DNA of 31,230 bases, from IMG/VR virus record IMGVR_UViG_3300021389_000095, positions 1 to 31,230 of that record; one strand, written 5' to 3'. The DNA is from a virus. The translations under genes were made by a program, and so were the position numbers. Positions 3,762 through 21,616 of this stretch are shown piece by piece. A model generated the notes under the pieces. It was not told where the DNA came from. It saw nothing but the letters and a program-made list of their open reading frames with translations, and ran no database searches. The first letter of the stretch is position 1; each line of letters opens with the position of its first letter.

Positions 3762-3793
3762 TTCTTGACTTTATTTCATAATTTTAGTATAAT
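3755..3793 (+). promoter_or_regulatory. Promoter P1 (sigma-70-like, leaderless start)
   Basis: Upstream block AAAATAGTTC (3755-3764), -35 TTGACT (3765-3770), 17-bp spacer, -10 TATAAT (3788-3793) extended to TATAATAT. The predicted transcription start falls at about 3800-3801, on the ATG of the following 37-codon gene. The motif is shared with P2-P5. Confidence 0.88.
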
Positions 3794-3800
3794 ATACATT

Positions 3801-3914
3801 ATGAAAAAGTTTAAAGAAATCAAAAAAATCAAGCCAGAGAAAAAAGTCTGTCCGTACTGTAAGACTACAGAAAACGCAGACAAACTCTGTGGCGTATACA
3901 AATGTTGGAAGTAA
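3801..3914 (+). CDS. Leaderless small Cys-rich protein (37 aa)
   Basis: ATG 3801 lies seven bases past the -10 box of P1, so the mRNA would have no leader. The protein has a very basic N-terminus (MKKFKEIKKIKPEKK) followed by CPYC and two further cysteines (C30, C35), a plausible four-Cys zinc knuckle. It may bind nucleic acid or a host protein; no family is recognised. Being first behind a strong promoter suggests early, high expression. Confidence 0.6.
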   Translation: MKKFKEIKKIKPEKKVCPYCKTTENADKLCGVYKCWK

Positions 3915-7085: not shown

Positions 7086-7117
7086 AACCAAGGCATTGCA
7101 AGATGTCTTGGTTTTTT
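7086..7117 (+). terminator. Rho-independent terminator
   Basis: AACCAAGGCA (7086-7095) pairs with TGTCTTGGTT (7104-7113), a 10-bp stem with one G-T pair and an 8-base loop, running directly into a six-T run (7112-7117). It ends the P2 unit. Confidence 0.9.
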
Positions 7118-7740: not shown

Positions 7741-7777
7741 AATAATTCTTGACAATACCTTGTAAATTTAGTATAAT
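7739..7777 (+). promoter_or_regulatory. Promoter P3 (sigma-70-like, leaderless start for ligase N-half)
   Basis: AAAATAATTC (7739-7748), -35 TTGACA (7749-7754), 17-bp spacer, -10 TATAAT (7772-7777) within TATAATATA. The predicted start coincides with ATG 7784, and there is no ribosome-binding site between. The first 17 bases (7739-7755) are identical to those of P4. Confidence 0.9.
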
Positions 7778-7783
7778 ATACTT

Positions 7784-8746
7784 ATGAAAAATTTAGAAGC
7801 ACTAATAAATCGAGCAAGGATTGCTTATTATAATGGTAAACCTCTTATGTCAGACGAACTGTATGACAGAATGGAGGCTCAACTTGATACACTGAATGAT
7901 GTTGTGGGCGCAAAGCAAGATCCACGATCAGTAAGGTGGACTCACGCCTTTCCAATGTACTCATTGCAAAAAGCATATACAATGGAAGATAGACCAGACT
8001 ACGGTCAAGAACCTGTAGTAGTCACCCCCAAATTAGACGGAGCCGCAGTTGCTCTACAATATATCTACGGCACATTATCTTGTGCCTTAACTCGAGGAGA
8101 TGGAAAAGAAGGTGTCGACATCACAGAAAAGATGCGACAACTTGTTCCTCGACACTTACTACCCTGCATGGGCAAACATATCGTGCAAATTACTGGAGAA
8201 GTAGTTGCTGATAAAAACATAGAAAATTCAAGAAACTATGCAGCGGGTGCACTCAATTTAAAAGATGTTGACGAGTTCAAAGAACGAGCAGGAAGTATGG
8301 AATTCATTGCCTATAGTATACAGCCTTATCCCACAAATGATTATATAGAAGATATGAACTTCTTAAATCATTGTGGTTTTGAGACTGCAATCGATAGTAA
8401 CTATTCTATGTTTCCTCAAGACGGAGAGGTATGGAGAGTTATAGATAACAAGGCTTTTGAAAAGCTAGGTTATACTTCTCACCATCCACGAGGAGCATTT
8501 GCCAAGAAAACAAAACCAGCAGGAGTAGTAACAAAACTACTTGATGTTGTTTGGCAAGTCGGCAAATCTGGGAATGTATCTCCAGTAGCAATTCTAGAAC
8601 CTATTAATATAAATGGTGCAACAGTAAGTAGAGCAACTCTACATAATATAGCAATCATTGAAGGTCTTGGACTTGAAATTGGTTGTTCTGTTGAAGTAAT
8701 AAGAGCAGGGGAAATTATTCCTCAAGTTATAGCGAGAGTAGATTAA
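7784..8746 (+). CDS. ligA: NAD+-dependent DNA ligase, N-terminal half (adenylation + OB domains)
   Basis: A 320-aa protein. The short N-terminus has the domain Ia-like YYNGKPLMSDELYD motif used in NMN recognition. Then come the adenylation motif KLDG with Lys83 as the AMP-accepting residue, RGDGKEGVDIT at 104-114, and GEVVADK. The last 80 residues form the OB fold (VVWQVGKSGNVSPVAILEPI, AGEIIPQVIARVD). It stops where E. coli LigA (671 aa) passes from OB to zinc finger; the missing zinc finger, HhH and BRCT domains are encoded at 10918-11673. Role: sealing Okazaki-fragment and repair nicks with NAD+. Adenylation could occur without the C-half, but full nick sealing normally needs the HhH region. 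Strong promoter P3, leaderless. Overlaps the glutaredoxin gene (TAATG). Confidence 0.93.
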   Translation: MKNLEALINRARIAYYNGKPLMSDELYDRMEAQLDTLNDVVGAKQDPRSVRWTHAFPMYSLQKAYTMEDRPDYGQEPVVVTPKLDGAAVALQYIYGTLSCALTRGDGKEGVDITEKMRQLVPRHLLPCMGKHIVQITGEVVADKNIENSRNYAAGALNLKDVDEFKERAGSMEFIAYSIQPYPTNDYIEDMNFLNHCGFETAIDSNYSMFPQDGEVWRVIDNKAFEKLGYTSHHPRGAFAKKTKPAGVVTKLLDVVWQVGKSGNVSPVAILEPININGATVSRATLHNIAIIEGLGLEIGCSVEVIRAGEIIPQVIARVD

Positions 8747-8979
8747 TGAGCTTAACAGTAGAAATATTTGGAAAGGATAACTGTCCATTTTGCGACAAGG
8801 CAAAAGCATTGGCGGAAAGACAAGGACATAGTTATACTTATAAACGATTAGGAGAACACTTTGAAATGGGATTCATTGCAGAGGAGTTTCCAGATGCAAG
8901 AACTTTTCCACAGATAAAAGTCAATGGAAATTATTGCGGAGGCTACACAGAGTATGAAACTCTAGTAAAAAAACTATGA
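8746..8979 (+). CDS. grx: Glutaredoxin
   Basis: A 77-aa thioredoxin-fold protein with the dithiol site CPFC (C13-C16) after the first strand TVEIFGKDN. It also has the cis-Pro segment TFPQIKVN and the GGYTEYE motif that binds glutathione. Length is that of small bacterial and phage glutaredoxins (E. coli Grx1 85 aa). Family role: reduces ribonucleotide reductase disulfides and protein-glutathione mixed disulfides. Class I RNR genes at 26749-29472 are a likely client; Fe-S proteins are another. The CPFC site differs from the CPYC of the E. coli enzyme by one residue. Coupled to the ligase N-half (TAATG) and to the next gene (ATGA). Confidence 0.92.
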   Translation: MSLTVEIFGKDNCPFCDKAKALAERQGHSYTYKRLGEHFEMGFIAEEFPDARTFPQIKVNGNYCGGYTEYETLVKKL

Positions 8980-9236
8980 GTTATTTAGCAATGAATGATA
9001 GAGAAGAATACCATATGTATCAGCGTCAAGGTAGAAGAGCAATAGTATATCGATACCACAACGATGCATGTTGGGGTTGTGAGTACTATGAGAATCAACT
9101 TAATGAAGATGGCGAAATGCACAGAGTATTAATCGCAGAGGAAAAGTATCCAAACCATAATGAACACTGGGCAGAAGATTGCGCAGACAATTATGTTTTT
9201 AGAATAAAAAACTTTGAAGAAAATCAAACTACGTAG
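8976..9236 (+). CDS. Hypothetical protein (86 aa)
   Basis: ATGA overlap with glutaredoxin. A polar protein, rich in Tyr, Glu and His, with CWGCEYYENQLNEDGEM in the middle and HWAEDC near the C-terminus. The three cysteines plus histidines could bind a metal. No family is recognised. Lies between the two ligase halves. Confidence 0.6.
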   Translation: MSYLAMNDREEYHMYQRQGRRAIVYRYHNDACWGCEYYENQLNEDGEMHRVLIAEEKYPNHNEHWAEDCADNYVFRIKNFEENQTT

Positions 9237-9246
9237 GGCAGAACCA

Positions 9247-9393
9247 ATGCCCGATAATCCATGCAGGGATTGTAAATTCTACGATCCCGTGCACAATATT
9301 ACTCCTACTCTCAGCGAAGGTTGGTGTAGAGTAAGCAAGTACACAGCATTTGTACTTTCAGAGGAAACTTGTAAAAAATGGGAATTAAAATAA
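9247..9393 (+). CDS. Small four-Cys zinc-ribbon-like protein (48 aa)
   Basis: MPDNPCRDCKFYDPV begins the ORF. Two more cysteines follow in EGWCRVS and ETCKKWE, giving C-x2-C...C...C. The pattern CxxCKFY....GWCR recurs in small phage and bacterial proteins. It begins ten bases after the previous stop and overlaps the next gene by 16 bases. Probably a structural zinc site; function unknown. Confidence 0.6.
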   Translation: MPDNPCRDCKFYDPVHNITPTLSEGWCRVSKYTAFVLSEETCKKWELK

Positions 9394-9563
9394 TACAATG
9401 GCTATTTCCACCAAAAAAGAAAAAAGAAGCAAAACCATTGACTAAATCACAAAAAATGAATGAAGAATTACGACAAGCATTCTTGAAGAATCGTAGTATA
9501 ATGAAAAACAAACCAACCCACAGAGAATGGATGGCTAGACAAGGAAAAGTACAAACGGAATGA
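9378..9563 (+). CDS. Small basic protein (61 aa)
   Basis: Starts inside the four-Cys gene. Very basic (MGIKIIQWLFPPKKKKEAKP), with a short hydrophobic N-terminus and a helical basic remainder (REWMARQGKVQ). Could bind nucleic acid or membrane. No family recognised. Its stop overlaps the next ATG. Confidence 0.5.
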   Translation: MGIKIIQWLFPPKKKKEAKPLTKSQKMNEELRQAFLKNRSIMKNKPTHREWMARQGKVQTE

Positions 9564-9730
9564 AAGAAGAAAAATTATTACAAGTTGCAAATCTATCCCC
9601 TAGTGAGGAAATGATTGAAAAAATTGTAGATGTACATCCAATGAAGCAAGTAGTTATTATGTCAGTAGTACAAGTAGGTATGTTTGGATTTATGTTATTT
9701 AGTTTTTTCGTAATTGATTTGGTAGTATGA
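9560..9730 (+). CDS. Small single-pass membrane protein (56 aa)
   Basis: ATGA overlap with the previous ORF. A charged N-terminal half (MKEEKLLQVANLSPSEEMIE) is followed by a hydrophobic C-terminal span of about 24 residues (VVIMSVVQVGMFGFMLFSFF) ending VIDLVV. Start and stop fit exactly between neighbours. Function unknown. Confidence 0.55.
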   Translation: MKEEKLLQVANLSPSEEMIEKIVDVHPMKQVVIMSVVQVGMFGFMLFSFFVIDLVV

Positions 9731-9912
9731 AACACATAGGCTTTCCTTTGCCTACTGAAATGTTTCATCCTCATACTTGTTTCGCCTTACCAAAAGACGA
9801 GGCAATATGTGAATTACTACAGATACCATTAAAGTGTTATTCCTGTGGAAAAATAATAAAAAGATATGAAAAAACAAAACGAACAATCAACCCACCTGTC
9901 AAAAGGTTCTAG
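9727..9912 (+). CDS. Small protein with CxxC knuckle (61 aa)
   Basis: ATGA overlap with the preceding membrane protein. It contains FHPHTCFALPKDEAICELL and CYSCGKIIKRYEKTKR, giving a possible zinc-binding set (two His/Cys plus CYSC). The C-terminus is basic. Overlaps the next ORF by 47 bases. Unknown. Confidence 0.5.
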   Translation: MKHIGFPLPTEMFHPHTCFALPKDEAICELLQIPLKCYSCGKIIKRYEKTKRTINPPVKRF

Positions 9913-10117
9913 TAAAGTCGAAGCTTACAGGCAGAAGATTACAGAACAGTTTGATGAATTGGAAGCTATGATGAATAAGCAAATGCATCTTACTGACCCT
10001 CAAACAGTAGAAGAAAAAATGTATTCAATAAATTATAAGTGGCATTTTATATCCGAAGAAGATAGAGACTTCTATCAAGGATGTAGACATGCACTTGATA
10101 ACGGATTAAAATGGTAG
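9866..10117 (+). CDS. Conserved phage hypothetical protein (83 aa)
   Basis: A helical, charged protein with the blocks ITEQFDELEAMMNKQMHLTD, MYSINYKWHFISEEDRDFYQ and CRHALDNGLKW. The YKW..(I/L)SEEDRDFYQ block resembles cyanophage hypotheticals by memory, supporting this frame over the overlapping end of the previous ORF. Function unknown. Confidence 0.6.
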   Translation: MKKQNEQSTHLSKGSSKVEAYRQKITEQFDELEAMMNKQMHLTDPQTVEEKMYSINYKWHFISEEDRDFYQGCRHALDNGLKW

Positions 10118-10515
10118 AACAAAAATGGATTACTCTTAGCAAGAATCTTGCTACAAAATCAAAAGCAACTATTAAGGCAAATGAAACTTTGAGAAATCCT
10201 GACGGTACACATAGAAAGAAAGGTGCACAAACTCATAGTATAACTTATGAAGATATACTACAAGTATTGGAAAATCAAAATTTTAAATGTGCGTATACAA
10301 ATCTTCCTTTAGTTCCTGAGTATGGAAAAGCAGGAACAGATTTATATGAACCTTATCATCCTCTAGCCCCCAGCTTGGATAGACTAGATAATAGTATTGG
10401 ATATGAGTTAGGTAATTTACAAGTATGTATACGATTATTTAATTTGGGATTTAGTGCATACAAAGGAAACAAAGAACAAATACTAGAGAAACTATATGGC
10501 AGGCGGAGTATATAA
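10111..10515 (+). CDS. HNH-type endonuclease-like protein (134 aa)
   Basis: The N-terminal half is basic. Residues about 57-65 have FKCAYTNLPL, the usual first part of an HNH motif; the usual second Cys of CxxC is Thr. SLDRLDNSIGYELGNLQV follows at about 89-107, the central beta-beta-alpha unit with Asp-Arg in place of the common Asp-His, as in the SLDRIDxxxGY subgroup. The C-terminus has FNLGFSAYKGNKEQ. Such proteins are free-standing homing or nicking nucleases in phages, and the subgroup may also include non-catalytic DNA binders. It lies with a GIY-YIG-like gene between the ligase halves, which is suggestive of past endonuclease insertion. Confidence 0.65.
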   Translation: MVEQKWITLSKNLATKSKATIKANETLRNPDGTHRKKGAQTHSITYEDILQVLENQNFKCAYTNLPLVPEYGKAGTDLYEPYHPLAPSLDRLDNSIGYELGNLQVCIRLFNLGFSAYKGNKEQILEKLYGRRSI

Positions 10516-10864
10516 TCAAACATATTTTAATAATCGACCCGAAGAAAAAGAAAGAGAGGGCGTTCTTTATGGAGTTATATTAGTTAACCAACGCACATTT
10601 GAGCGTGAGTGTATTAAGGTCGGAATCGCTAGTGGCAAAGACTGGCGACATGTAATCAAAAGAAGTCGTGGATTTAAAGGATATGATTTACGTATCCAGC
10701 GAACTTATCACGACACCATTTATCGGTGCTGGCAAATCGAGCAGGCACTTCACGAGAAGTTTAAACACGATAGTTATTCCCCAATTCAGAAATTTGGTGG
10801 GCATACAGAGTGCTTTAAAATTTCCTCTCTTATTTTATCCCAGTTCCCGAAAAATAATTCTTGA
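10496..10864 (+). CDS. GIY-YIG-superfamily (T5orf172/Mug113-like) nuclease-like protein (122 aa)
   Basis: Residues 22-31 (GVLYGVILVN) and IKVGIASG give the two strands of the GIY-YIG fold. CWQIEQALHEKFKHDSY gives the E..LH..F helix carrying the metal-binding Glu. GGHTECFKI resembles the GxTEWF strand of the T5orf172 group. The gene overlaps the HNH-like gene by 20 bases, and its stop lies on the -35 of P4. Phage GIY-YIG proteins are often mobile endonucleases. Catalytic competence is uncertain because the Tyr and Arg positions cannot be fixed by eye. Confidence 0.65.
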   Translation: MAGGVYNQTYFNNRPEEKEREGVLYGVILVNQRTFERECIKVGIASGKDWRHVIKRSRGFKGYDLRIQRTYHDTIYRCWQIEQALHEKFKHDSYSPIQKFGGHTECFKISSLILSQFPKNNS

Positions 10865-10889
10865 CAAATGGTTCGCCGTTTGTTATAAT
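10851..10889 (+). promoter_or_regulatory. Promoter P4 (sigma-70-like) for ligase C-half
   Basis: AAAATAATTC (10851-10860), -35 TTGACA (10861-10866), 17-bp spacer, -10 TATAAT (10884-10889) within TATAATAT. Predicted start near 10896, a leader of about 22 nt with GAGAAAGAG before ATG 10918. The first 17 bases equal those of P3. Confidence 0.9.
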
Positions 10890-10917
10890 ATTATCATATT
10901 TTAGAGAAAGAGAATAA

Positions 10918-11673
10918 ATGACAGAAATAATACCACCGACAAATTGCCCCGCTTGTAACAGCGTACTAGAATTTGTAGGTGACCAGTTATTTTGTCAGAA
11001 CTCCTCTTGCTCTGCAAAATCTGCAAAGCGTCTTGAACACTTTGCAAAAACCTTAAAAATCAGAGGACTCGGTCCCTCAACTATTGAGAGACTTGGTCTT
11101 GACGATTACAAAGATATTTATTCGTTAACCCAAGAAGAAATATCTTTTCTGTTGGATTCAGAGAAGCTAGGTACGAAACTACACAATGAGATACAGAAAT
11201 CAAAGAGTGTCGACCTTATAACTCTACTTCCAGCTTTTTCGATACCGCTGATTGGCTCAAGTGCTTCAAATAAATTAGCGAAACACATCTCATCTTTAAG
11301 TGAGATAACCCCAGAGATATGTATAGAAGCAGGTCTGGGTCCGAAAGCGGCGTCGAATCTTATTGATTGGTTAGTAAACACTTTCCATTTCGAACAATAC
11401 TATAACCTACCCTTTACTTTTACTTGCAAAAAACGAGAAGAGGTCACTAACACTGACACTAAGGGAACAGTTTGCATTACAGGAAAGTTAAAAAGCTATC
11501 CAACTAAAGCCGCTGCACAAGAAGTATTAATAAAGAAAGGCTACTTAGTAAAGGATAATCTCACCAAAGATGTAACTATCTTAGTTAATGAGAGTGGAAT
11601 CGAAAGTGCAAAAACCAAGAAAGCAGAAGAAATGGGTATAATAATAAACCAAAATTTAAAAGAACTTATTTAG
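10918..11673 (+). CDS. ligA: NAD+-dependent DNA ligase, C-terminal half (zinc finger + HhH + BRCT)
   Basis: A 251-aa protein that starts exactly at the LigA zinc finger: C10, C13, C26 and C31 in NCPAC and FCQNSSC. Helix-hairpin-helix repeats follow (KIRGLGPSTIERLGL at 47-61, IGSSASNKLAKHI, GLGPKAASNLIDWL). A C-terminal BRCT domain spans about 182-251 (GTVCITGKLKSYPTKAAAQE). It has no adenylation motif, so it cannot be a ligase alone and must complement the 7784-8746 product. Together the halves give 571 aa against about 670 in bacteria, with the HhH region shortened. Family knowledge: zinc finger and HhH clamp nicked DNA. Own promoter P4 and ribosome-binding site, followed 12 bases later by an HTH gene. 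Confidence 0.92.
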   Translation: MTEIIPPTNCPACNSVLEFVGDQLFCQNSSCSAKSAKRLEHFAKTLKIRGLGPSTIERLGLDDYKDIYSLTQEEISFLLDSEKLGTKLHNEIQKSKSVDLITLLPAFSIPLIGSSASNKLAKHISSLSEITPEICIEAGLGPKAASNLIDWLVNTFHFEQYYNLPFTFTCKKREEVTNTDTKGTVCITGKLKSYPTKAAAQEVLIKKGYLVKDNLTKDVTILVNESGIESAKTKKAEEMGIIINQNLKELI

Positions 11674-11685
11674 GAAAATAAAATC

Positions 11686-12402
11686 ATGGCATTACCAAAA
11701 TGGACAGACGAAAGGACTCAATCTCTAGTAGATTTCGTAGGAAGCGAGAGCCCAATATCCCAAGGAACAGTTGCAAATGCAGCAGAGCACTTGGAAACAT
11801 CAACCCGTTCAGTCTCAAGCAAATTGAGAAAAATGGGATTTGATGTTGAACTAGCTTCAGCATCAGCAAGCAAGTCTTTTTCAGACGAGCAAGAAGCAAC
11901 ACTATCAGCATTTGTCAATGACAATAGCGGATCGTACACATATGCAGAAATTGCATCAAACTTTGAAGGCGGACACTTCTCAGCTAAATCAATCCAAGGA
12001 AAAATTCTTTCTATGGAATTAACAGAGCATGTTAAACCTGCTCCTAAAGTTGAGACAGTTAGAACTTATACTCCTGAAGAAGAAGGCACATTTGTAGAGA
12101 TGGTTAACGGTGGATCTTTCGTAGAAGAAATCGCTGACGCTCTTGGCAAATCTGTTAATTCAATCAGAGGTAAAGCTCTTTCACTTCTAAGAAGTGGCGA
12201 AATTAACGCTATTCCAAAGCAAAAAGAAACTAAAGGATCAAGCAAAGCTGACGTACTTGCTGATATCGATATTACTGACATGACTGTAGAGTCAATTGCA
12301 GATCAAATCGGTAAAACAGTAAGAGGCGTGAAAACTATGTTAACAAGACGTGGTTTACAGTGTGCTGATTACAACGGTGCAGCTAAAAAAGATATCGGTT
12401 AA
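11686..12402 (+). CDS. Multi-domain HTH/Myb-like phage DNA-binding protein (238 aa)
   Basis: Begins MALPKWTDERTQSLVDFVG, a family that by memory is very widespread in marine phages. Four helical units can be read: 5-45 (WTDERTQ...TSTRSVSSKLRKMG), 64-105 (FSDEQEATLSAFV...FSAKSIQGKIL), 123-166 (YTPEEEGTFVEMV...KSVNSIRGKALSLL) and 195-230 (MTVESIADQIGKTVRGVKTM). Each ends with an S(V/I)xxK-type recognition helix, as in Myb/SANT or homeodomain-like folds. Several tandem DNA-binding units suggest a transcription or nucleoid factor. It is co-transcribed with the ligase C-half from P4 and closed by a terminator. Related in build to the 6618-7067 product, which is also followed by a terminator. Confidence 0.75.
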   Translation: MALPKWTDERTQSLVDFVGSESPISQGTVANAAEHLETSTRSVSSKLRKMGFDVELASASASKSFSDEQEATLSAFVNDNSGSYTYAEIASNFEGGHFSAKSIQGKILSMELTEHVKPAPKVETVRTYTPEEEGTFVEMVNGGSFVEEIADALGKSVNSIRGKALSLLRSGEINAIPKQKETKGSSKADVLADIDITDMTVESIADQIGKTVRGVKTMLTRRGLQCADYNGAAKKDIG

Positions 12403-12423: not shown

Positions 12424-12462
12424 GGTGGAGGCACTCTTGTGCCTCTGCCATTTTTAATTTTT
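12424..12462 (+). terminator. Rho-independent terminator
   Basis: GGTGGAGGCAC (12424-12434) pairs with GTGCCTCTGCC (12439-12449): 11 bp including two G-T pairs, with a TCTT loop, followed by A and then TTTTTAATTTTT (12451-12462). It separates the ligase/HTH unit from the helicase; no promoter of the P1-P5 type follows it. Confidence 0.88.
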
Positions 12463-21169: not shown

Positions 21170-21208
21170 AAAATAGTACTTGACACGAGGTCAAGAATTT
21201 GTTATAAT
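21170..21208 (+). promoter_or_regulatory. Promoter P5 (sigma-70-like)
   Basis: AAAATAGTAC (21170-21179), -35 TTGACA (21180-21185), 17-bp spacer, -10 TATAAT (21203-21208) within TATAATAT. The predicted start (near 21215) is a few bases inside the downstream ORF, whose ATG at 21209 overlaps the TATAATATG. Drives the SSB-peroxiredoxin-SbcCD-RNR block. Confidence 0.88.
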
Positions 21209-21616
21209 ATGTTATTCTATAATTGGGAAAAAGTAAAAAAGGAAAGCAATGGGAGTGTCAAAGATATTATGACAATCCTTCATATACTTACCTATAAACT
21301 TCCACCAGTGAATAGACATGATAGAATATATAAGTTTTGGACTAAAAGTTTTCATGGACATAGTTTCCTAGTAAACCCCGAGGCATTATTCATTCAGCGT
21401 AGGAGATATTCAGATGCAGAGATTGTGCAGTATGCAGGTATCGCATCATTGCGTAATTATTTTGAATATCAAAAAACAAAAGATACCAGATTAGACCTCC
21501 TCCACTTTACAGGGGATGAGGACAGTATTAAAAACAATAGATTACTACGAATAGAGGGATATTATATACACTTTCTATTTGAAGAAATCACTTTAAAGGA
21601 ACTAAAATGGCAATAA
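21209..21616 (+). CDS. Conserved marine-phage hypothetical protein (135 aa)
   Basis: Contains FYNWEKVKKESNGSVKDI, then TYKLPPVNRHDRIYKFW, SFHGHSFLVNPEALF, EIVQYAGIASLRNYFEY and NRLLRIEGYYIHFLFEE. These are blocks I recall from T4-like cyanophage hypotheticals, where the N-terminal YNW region is also conserved. The start is awkward: ATG 21209 lies on the -10 extension of P5, so an RNA from P5 would begin inside the ORF. The next in-frame ATG is 21269, after GGGAG at 21251-21255. Either the long form comes from read-through RNA or the short form from P5. Overlaps the next gene by ten bases. Confidence 0.65.
   Translation: MLFYNWEKVKKESNGSVKDIMTILHILTYKLPPVNRHDRIYKFWTKSFHGHSFLVNPEALFIQRRRYSDAEIVQYAGIASLRNYFEYQKTKDTRLDLLHFTGDEDSIKNNRLLRIEGYYIHFLFEEITLKELKWQ

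Follow-up and report, generated by a model that had tools for sequence, protein, structure and literature searches.

How does a phage come to carry an NAD+-dependent DNA ligase as two separate genes with other genes between them, and could the two products still work as one enzyme? The question is raised by a stretch of viral DNA of 31,230 nucleotides (positions 1 to 31,230 of the IMG/VR record IMGVR_UViG_3300021389_000095), referred to here as the window, in which the original prediction had recognized the N-terminal half of such a ligase at 7784-8746 and the C-terminal half at 10918-11673. We are highly confident that the products of these genes, ligA and ligB, are subunits A and B of a heterodimeric NAD+-dependent DNA ligase of the T5 type, and that the window is part of the genome of a marine T5-like phage. 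This reading draws on sequence, domains, conservation, synteny and promoter motifs. The split itself is not novel, as T5 and its relatives are already known to have a two-piece ligase. What is added to this known kind of enzyme is the breadth of the marine group that carries it and a leaderless-type start of ligA.

Domain content and break point

The coordinates of both halves proved exact, and their predicted domains were recovered. Subunit A (7784..8746, plus strand) is a product of 320 aa with the Ia, adenylation (Pfam 9.5e-23) and OB domains; the OB domain spans residues 250-318 (Pfam 1.3e-24), and the chain stops just past the OB fold. Subunit B (10918..11673, plus strand; 251 aa) starts with the zinc-finger cysteines Cys10, Cys13, Cys26 and Cys31, followed by HhH and BRCT. 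On the LigA model TIGR00575, which has 652 positions, the N product covers 1-377 and the C product 388-646, so the pair rebuilds nearly the whole of LigA, with the break at the border between the OB fold and the zinc finger (about residues 392-399 when mapped onto E. coli LigA). This coverage agrees with the earlier view of a cut at a clean domain border rather than a frameshift. The adenylation motif KxDG of subunit A is invariant (K83, D85 and G86, K83 being the KLDG lysine), the other ligase motifs are also kept, and all four zinc cysteines of subunit B are invariant.

Misassembly or frameshift as the source of the split is excluded: in a second contig both halves are 100% identical and are separated by the same gap of 2,171 bp, and dozens more contigs have the split. 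In one 5.1 kb contig (L050, 2266-3019), the C half itself lies in two overlapping frames, which is probably a sequencing or assembly error.

Family and structure matches

Each half belongs to the family of the corresponding T5 subunit in PHROGs, subunit A to phrog_3359 (3.3e-102, 1-323 of 325) and subunit B to phrog_3498 (6.9e-61, 2-248 of 256). The C product was not assigned to any family outside the ligases, and both halves align to consecutive parts of the fused family phrog_3869. In a sequence search of the PDB, each half finds its counterpart chain in 9hu3/9i5i as the top match; this structure is known here from its PDB title alone, 'PR1 phage heterodimeric DNA ligase in complex with 21-mer nicked DNA'. 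The AlphaFold2 models (mean pLDDT 86.8 for the N half and 84.8 for the C half) both bring up 9hu3/9i5i first in a structure search, with Z 31.7 and an rmsd of 4.0 over 301 residues for the N model, and Z 16.3 and an rmsd of 3.3 over 153 residues for the C model, for which E. coli LigA ties. The C model has a pTM of 0.61, and the mutual placement of its zinc finger, HhH and BRCT is uncertain. A search of the open-access literature found no paper on split or heterodimeric DNA ligase, nor on 9HU3.

Gene order and age of the split

The window contains the T5-type replication module of Demerecviridae (T5-like phages), in the same order as in T5: ligA, ligB, D5, a D6-like helicase, primase, polymerase and a D10-like helicase. 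The gene for the D5-like DNA-binding regulator (11686..12402, plus strand) fixes the synteny with T5, and ligB and D5 are adjacent in every isolate read. Directly upstream of ligA are two small genes, one of a phage family of unknown function and one of a transcriptional-regulator family; small genes before ligA are also found in T5-type isolates.

As the original prediction had suggested looking for, the same gene order recurs in related genomes. Every one of the 12 T5-type isolates read, from the hosts Escherichia, Klebsiella, Serratia, Pantoea, Pectobacterium, Proteus, Aeromonas, Enterobacter and Vibrio, has the ligase in two pieces, 178-1,374 bp apart; in related IMG/VR viral contigs the halves are apart in 66/66 distinct intervals, by 488 to 4,190 bp. 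No fused allele was found in the T5-type loci read, and single-chain LigA was met only in distantly related phages. The 31 kb window, itself a fragment of a genome, holds no fused LigA, and seven long relatives (records that are also fragments, of up to 104 kb) each carry only one A and one B.

In maximum-likelihood trees of the N and C halves, a 100/100 branch parts the split rows from the fused phage ligases, and the relatives of the window form one group in both; the fused outgroup rows are long-branched, and the trees were used only for this separation of split from fused. An independent recent split in this phage is ruled out, the split rows all lying on one side of that strongly supported branch. 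The split is ancestral to the whole phage group, and the interval has since gathered accessory genes.

Genes between the halves

The 2,171 bp between ligA and ligB are occupied by nine overlapping small ORFs, matching the eight or nine counted originally. For all nine, homologues turn up between the ligase genes of related contigs, so that they are real genes. The first encodes a glutaredoxin-like protein (8746..8979, plus strand; PF00462, 3.9e-10), found in 20/66 of the relatives' intervals. It is followed by six small overlapping accessory ORFs on the plus strand (8976..10117, namely 8976-9236, 9214-9393, 9378-9563, 9560-9730, 9727-9912 and 9866-10117), which have homologues in 6-28 of the 66 intervals and gave no match above the cut-off in family searches. 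The last two genes encode nucleases. A free-standing nuclease of the HNH or endonuclease VII-like type (10111..10515, plus strand) is sporadic, occurring in two of the 66 distinct intervals; it is shared with the contig L025, and it is probably a recent mobile arrival. The other, a small GIY-YIG nuclease of the T5orf172 type (10496..10864, plus strand), is present in every one of the 66 related intervals. Apart from this GIY-YIG gene, the content of the interval is fluid across relatives.

The two nucleases bring up the explanation that a homing endonuclease split the ligase gene in place, as happened to nrdA with mobE in Aeh1, so that the GIY-YIG and HNH genes would be the cause of the arrangement. 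There is a documented precedent in phage genes split by mobE and mobA (PMC2988022); two nuclease genes do lie between the halves, and an occurrence as scattered as that of the HNH gene (2/66) is expected of a mobile element. However, T5 and the other isolates read share the break, show no GIY-YIG gene in sequence searches and have gaps down to 178 bp; the fused allele is absent from close relatives among the T5-type loci read; and the HNH gene arrived later than the split. The GIY-YIG protein is also unlike a wandering element, with a dN/dS of about 0.07. Such an origin is unlikely in our view, while the same data leave room for a variant in which a very old insertion was followed by loss of the nuclease in the isolates.

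Under the preferred reading of an ancestral split with an interval filled later, the GIY-YIG gene seems to be fixed in the marine group and not to be a passing homing element, because it is found in all the intervals and, with a mean column identity of 84%, is more conserved than both ligase halves. It was not detected by sequence search in the T5-type isolate regions read. The nearest annotated phage relatives of its product are a Vibrio phage endonuclease and tcgC of ICP1, annotated as 'putative homing endonuclease'. Nicks are known in the T5 genome, and the idea of the GIY-YIG protein as the ligase's genome-nicking partner was set aside without support.

Promoters and the start of ligA

A strong promoter of its own had been predicted for each half, and both turned out to be perfect matches to the consensus TTGACA-17-TATAAT (12/12). 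The promoter of the N-half gene (7749..7777, plus strand) has a -10 element that ends 6 nt before the ATG. The promoter of the C-half gene (10861..10889, plus strand) lies 28 nt before the ATG and is followed by the Shine-Dalgarno-like AGAGAAAGAG. Perfect promoter sites number four in the window, against 0.05 expected. Both ligase promoters are conserved in relatives. For ligB, the -10 element lies at a variable distance from the start, in most cases 23-35 nt, and is followed by a Shine-Dalgarno-like purine run. The original prediction also held that the C half could be regulated separately; its own promoter is conserved, which makes separate expression plausible.

The promoter in front of ligB could instead mean that subunit B has a second role independent of the ligase (e.g., DNA nick binding, or replication control together with D5). 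The conserved promoter stands immediately 5' of ligB-D5, and the constant adjacency of these two genes in the isolates would fit such a role. But subunit A accompanies subunit B wherever a contig reaches far enough, and family searches give no sign of another role, so that we regard this as very improbable and keep to the reading of B as a subunit of the ligase.

The promoter of ligA has a different geometry. Among 71 distinct upstream sequences, 54 have a promoter (11-12 of 12 matches, spacer 17) that ends 6-7 nt before the ATG, the distance being 6 nt in 51 of them and 7 nt in three. These 54 are on average without a Shine-Dalgarno sequence, with a mean anti-Shine-Dalgarno pairing energy of +0.3 kcal/mol, whereas the remaining 17 have no promoter but do have a Shine-Dalgarno sequence (mean -4.1 kcal/mol; Mann-Whitney p 4e-11, uncorrected for shared ancestry). 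By inspection, the 17 promoterless sequences occupy at least three separate positions in the N tree (L095, the L099-L108 group and L202).

The arrangement extends beyond ligA. Four genomes together contain 57 near-perfect promoters, and 20 of these are followed by an ATG-started ORF 6-9 nt past the -10 element; the density is 5.0 per position at 6-9 nt vs 0.67 at 10-45 nt (p 1.6e-9), bearing in mind that these genomes share some genes and the promoter sites are not all independent. In the control set of TATAAT without a -35 element, only 2/250 have an ATG-started ORF 6-9 nt downstream. A second leaderless-type promoter in the window (3765-3793, 11/12, with the ATG at 3801, 7 nt past the -10) precedes a 37-codon zinc-ribbon-like mini-ORF and is also seen in the relative G004 at 34582 (minus strand). 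At another perfect promoter (21180-21208), which is conserved in G004 and almost fully in G001, the -10 element abuts the first ATG of the ORF 21209-21616 (0 nt). Since transcription from it would begin within the ORF, the real start probably lies downstream of that first ATG.

The ligA gene itself shows the leaderless-type sequence features: it lacks a Shine-Dalgarno sequence, and its -10 element is within the range of about 6-9 nt upstream of the ATG. With the usual spacing between -10 and start site, the first nucleotide transcribed would be the A of the ATG, and the ligA mRNA is predicted to be leaderless, starting exactly at the start codon. We also put forward, as a tentative and somewhat doubtful proposal, that in the marine T5-like group host sigma70 consensus promoters start ligA and several other transcripts at the AUG, and that, with A leaderless and B translated from a Shine-Dalgarno sequence, the ratio of the two could shift with the state of the ribosomes during infection. 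In enterobacteria, few mRNAs are leaderless (PMC9031893), and nothing directly relevant was found in the open-access literature on genome-wide leaderless transcription in phages. Terminator-like hairpins at 7086-7113 and 12424-12449 flank the stretch from ligA to D5, and the layout suggests one transcription unit from ligA to D5 with an internal promoter before ligB.

Function of the two subunits

Both halves are under purifying selection, as judged from the median dN/dS among nine relatives (0.15 for N and 0.21 for C, values whose precision is limited by saturation). It is most likely that the halves act as a heterodimer in which A is adenylated by NAD+ and B gives DNA binding. The T5 A and B families, this selection and best matches to the two chains of a solved heterodimer speak strongly for the two-subunit enzyme that had been proposed, whose physical assembly and activity we infer. 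In the mechanism we envisage, subunit A, which carries the OB fold, would bind NAD+ and take AMP from it on K83; the zinc finger, HhH and BRCT of subunit B would clamp the nicked DNA; and the A+B dimer would seal the nick, both chains being needed. Each gene would be read from its own host-type promoter, the A transcript leaderless and the B transcript with a normal leader and a Shine-Dalgarno sequence. A comparable division was made in Haloferax LigN, where residues 1-417, the N half of a fused LigA, can be adenylated by NAD+ but cannot ligate; the motive of that truncation test was the T5 split (PMC1684257). That the halves are decaying, non-functional fragments of a broken ligase gene, as the presence of two ORFs in place of the single one of most organisms might suggest, has a negligible probability, given intact ORFs, invariant catalytic residues, dN/dS of 0.15-0.21, and promoters and lengths conserved in dozens of contigs.

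Significance

The known T5-type heterodimer is extended here to a large group of uncultured marine phages, in which the ligase stays split but the distance from ligA to ligB is free to grow. The less ordinary features are the leaderless-type start of ligA and the GIY-YIG gene present in all 66 intervals. The promoter-on-start-codon arrangement is a more useful lead than the ligase: a group that seemingly uses leaderless mRNAs repeatedly is a natural testable set, which includes relatives with a Shine-Dalgarno start for ligA.

Comparison with known systems

The closest known system is T5 itself, whose LigA (T5.116) and LigB (T5.117; AY543070) have the same break point and belong to the same two subunit families, with identities to the window of 46% (A) and 37% (B), and which shares the order ligA-ligB-D5-D6-pri-pol-D10. 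The original prediction had set the window apart from T5 by the distance between the halves and by their own promoters. The gap is indeed larger, 2,171 bp with nine ORFs vs about 200 bp and no gene in between in T5, but this is a difference of degree; annotated T5 promoters, one before ligA and two before ligB, likewise precede both genes. In T5, however, a promoter-like -10 element lies 31 nt before the ligA ATG, whereas that of the window ends 6 nt before it. Gaps wider than that of T5 occur elsewhere, up to 1.37 kb in Vibrio T5-type phages and up to 4.2 kb in other marine relatives. For example, the Ermolyevavirinae Vibrio phages Rocket24 and VPT02 also have a split ligase with intervening genes (914-1,374 bp), among them a DprA-like gene where the window has the glutaredoxin and GIY-YIG genes. 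The heterodimeric ligase of phage PR1 (9hu3/9i5i) divides the same domains over two chains, at an identity to the window of about 40% (A) and 34-37% (B), and is the best match of each half in both sequence and structure. Finally, nrdA/mobE of Aeh1 and gene 39/60/mobA of T4 (PMC2988022) are likewise cases of one enzyme made as two chains with nuclease genes nearby; unlike these, the split in the window is old, group-wide and present also where the nucleases are not.
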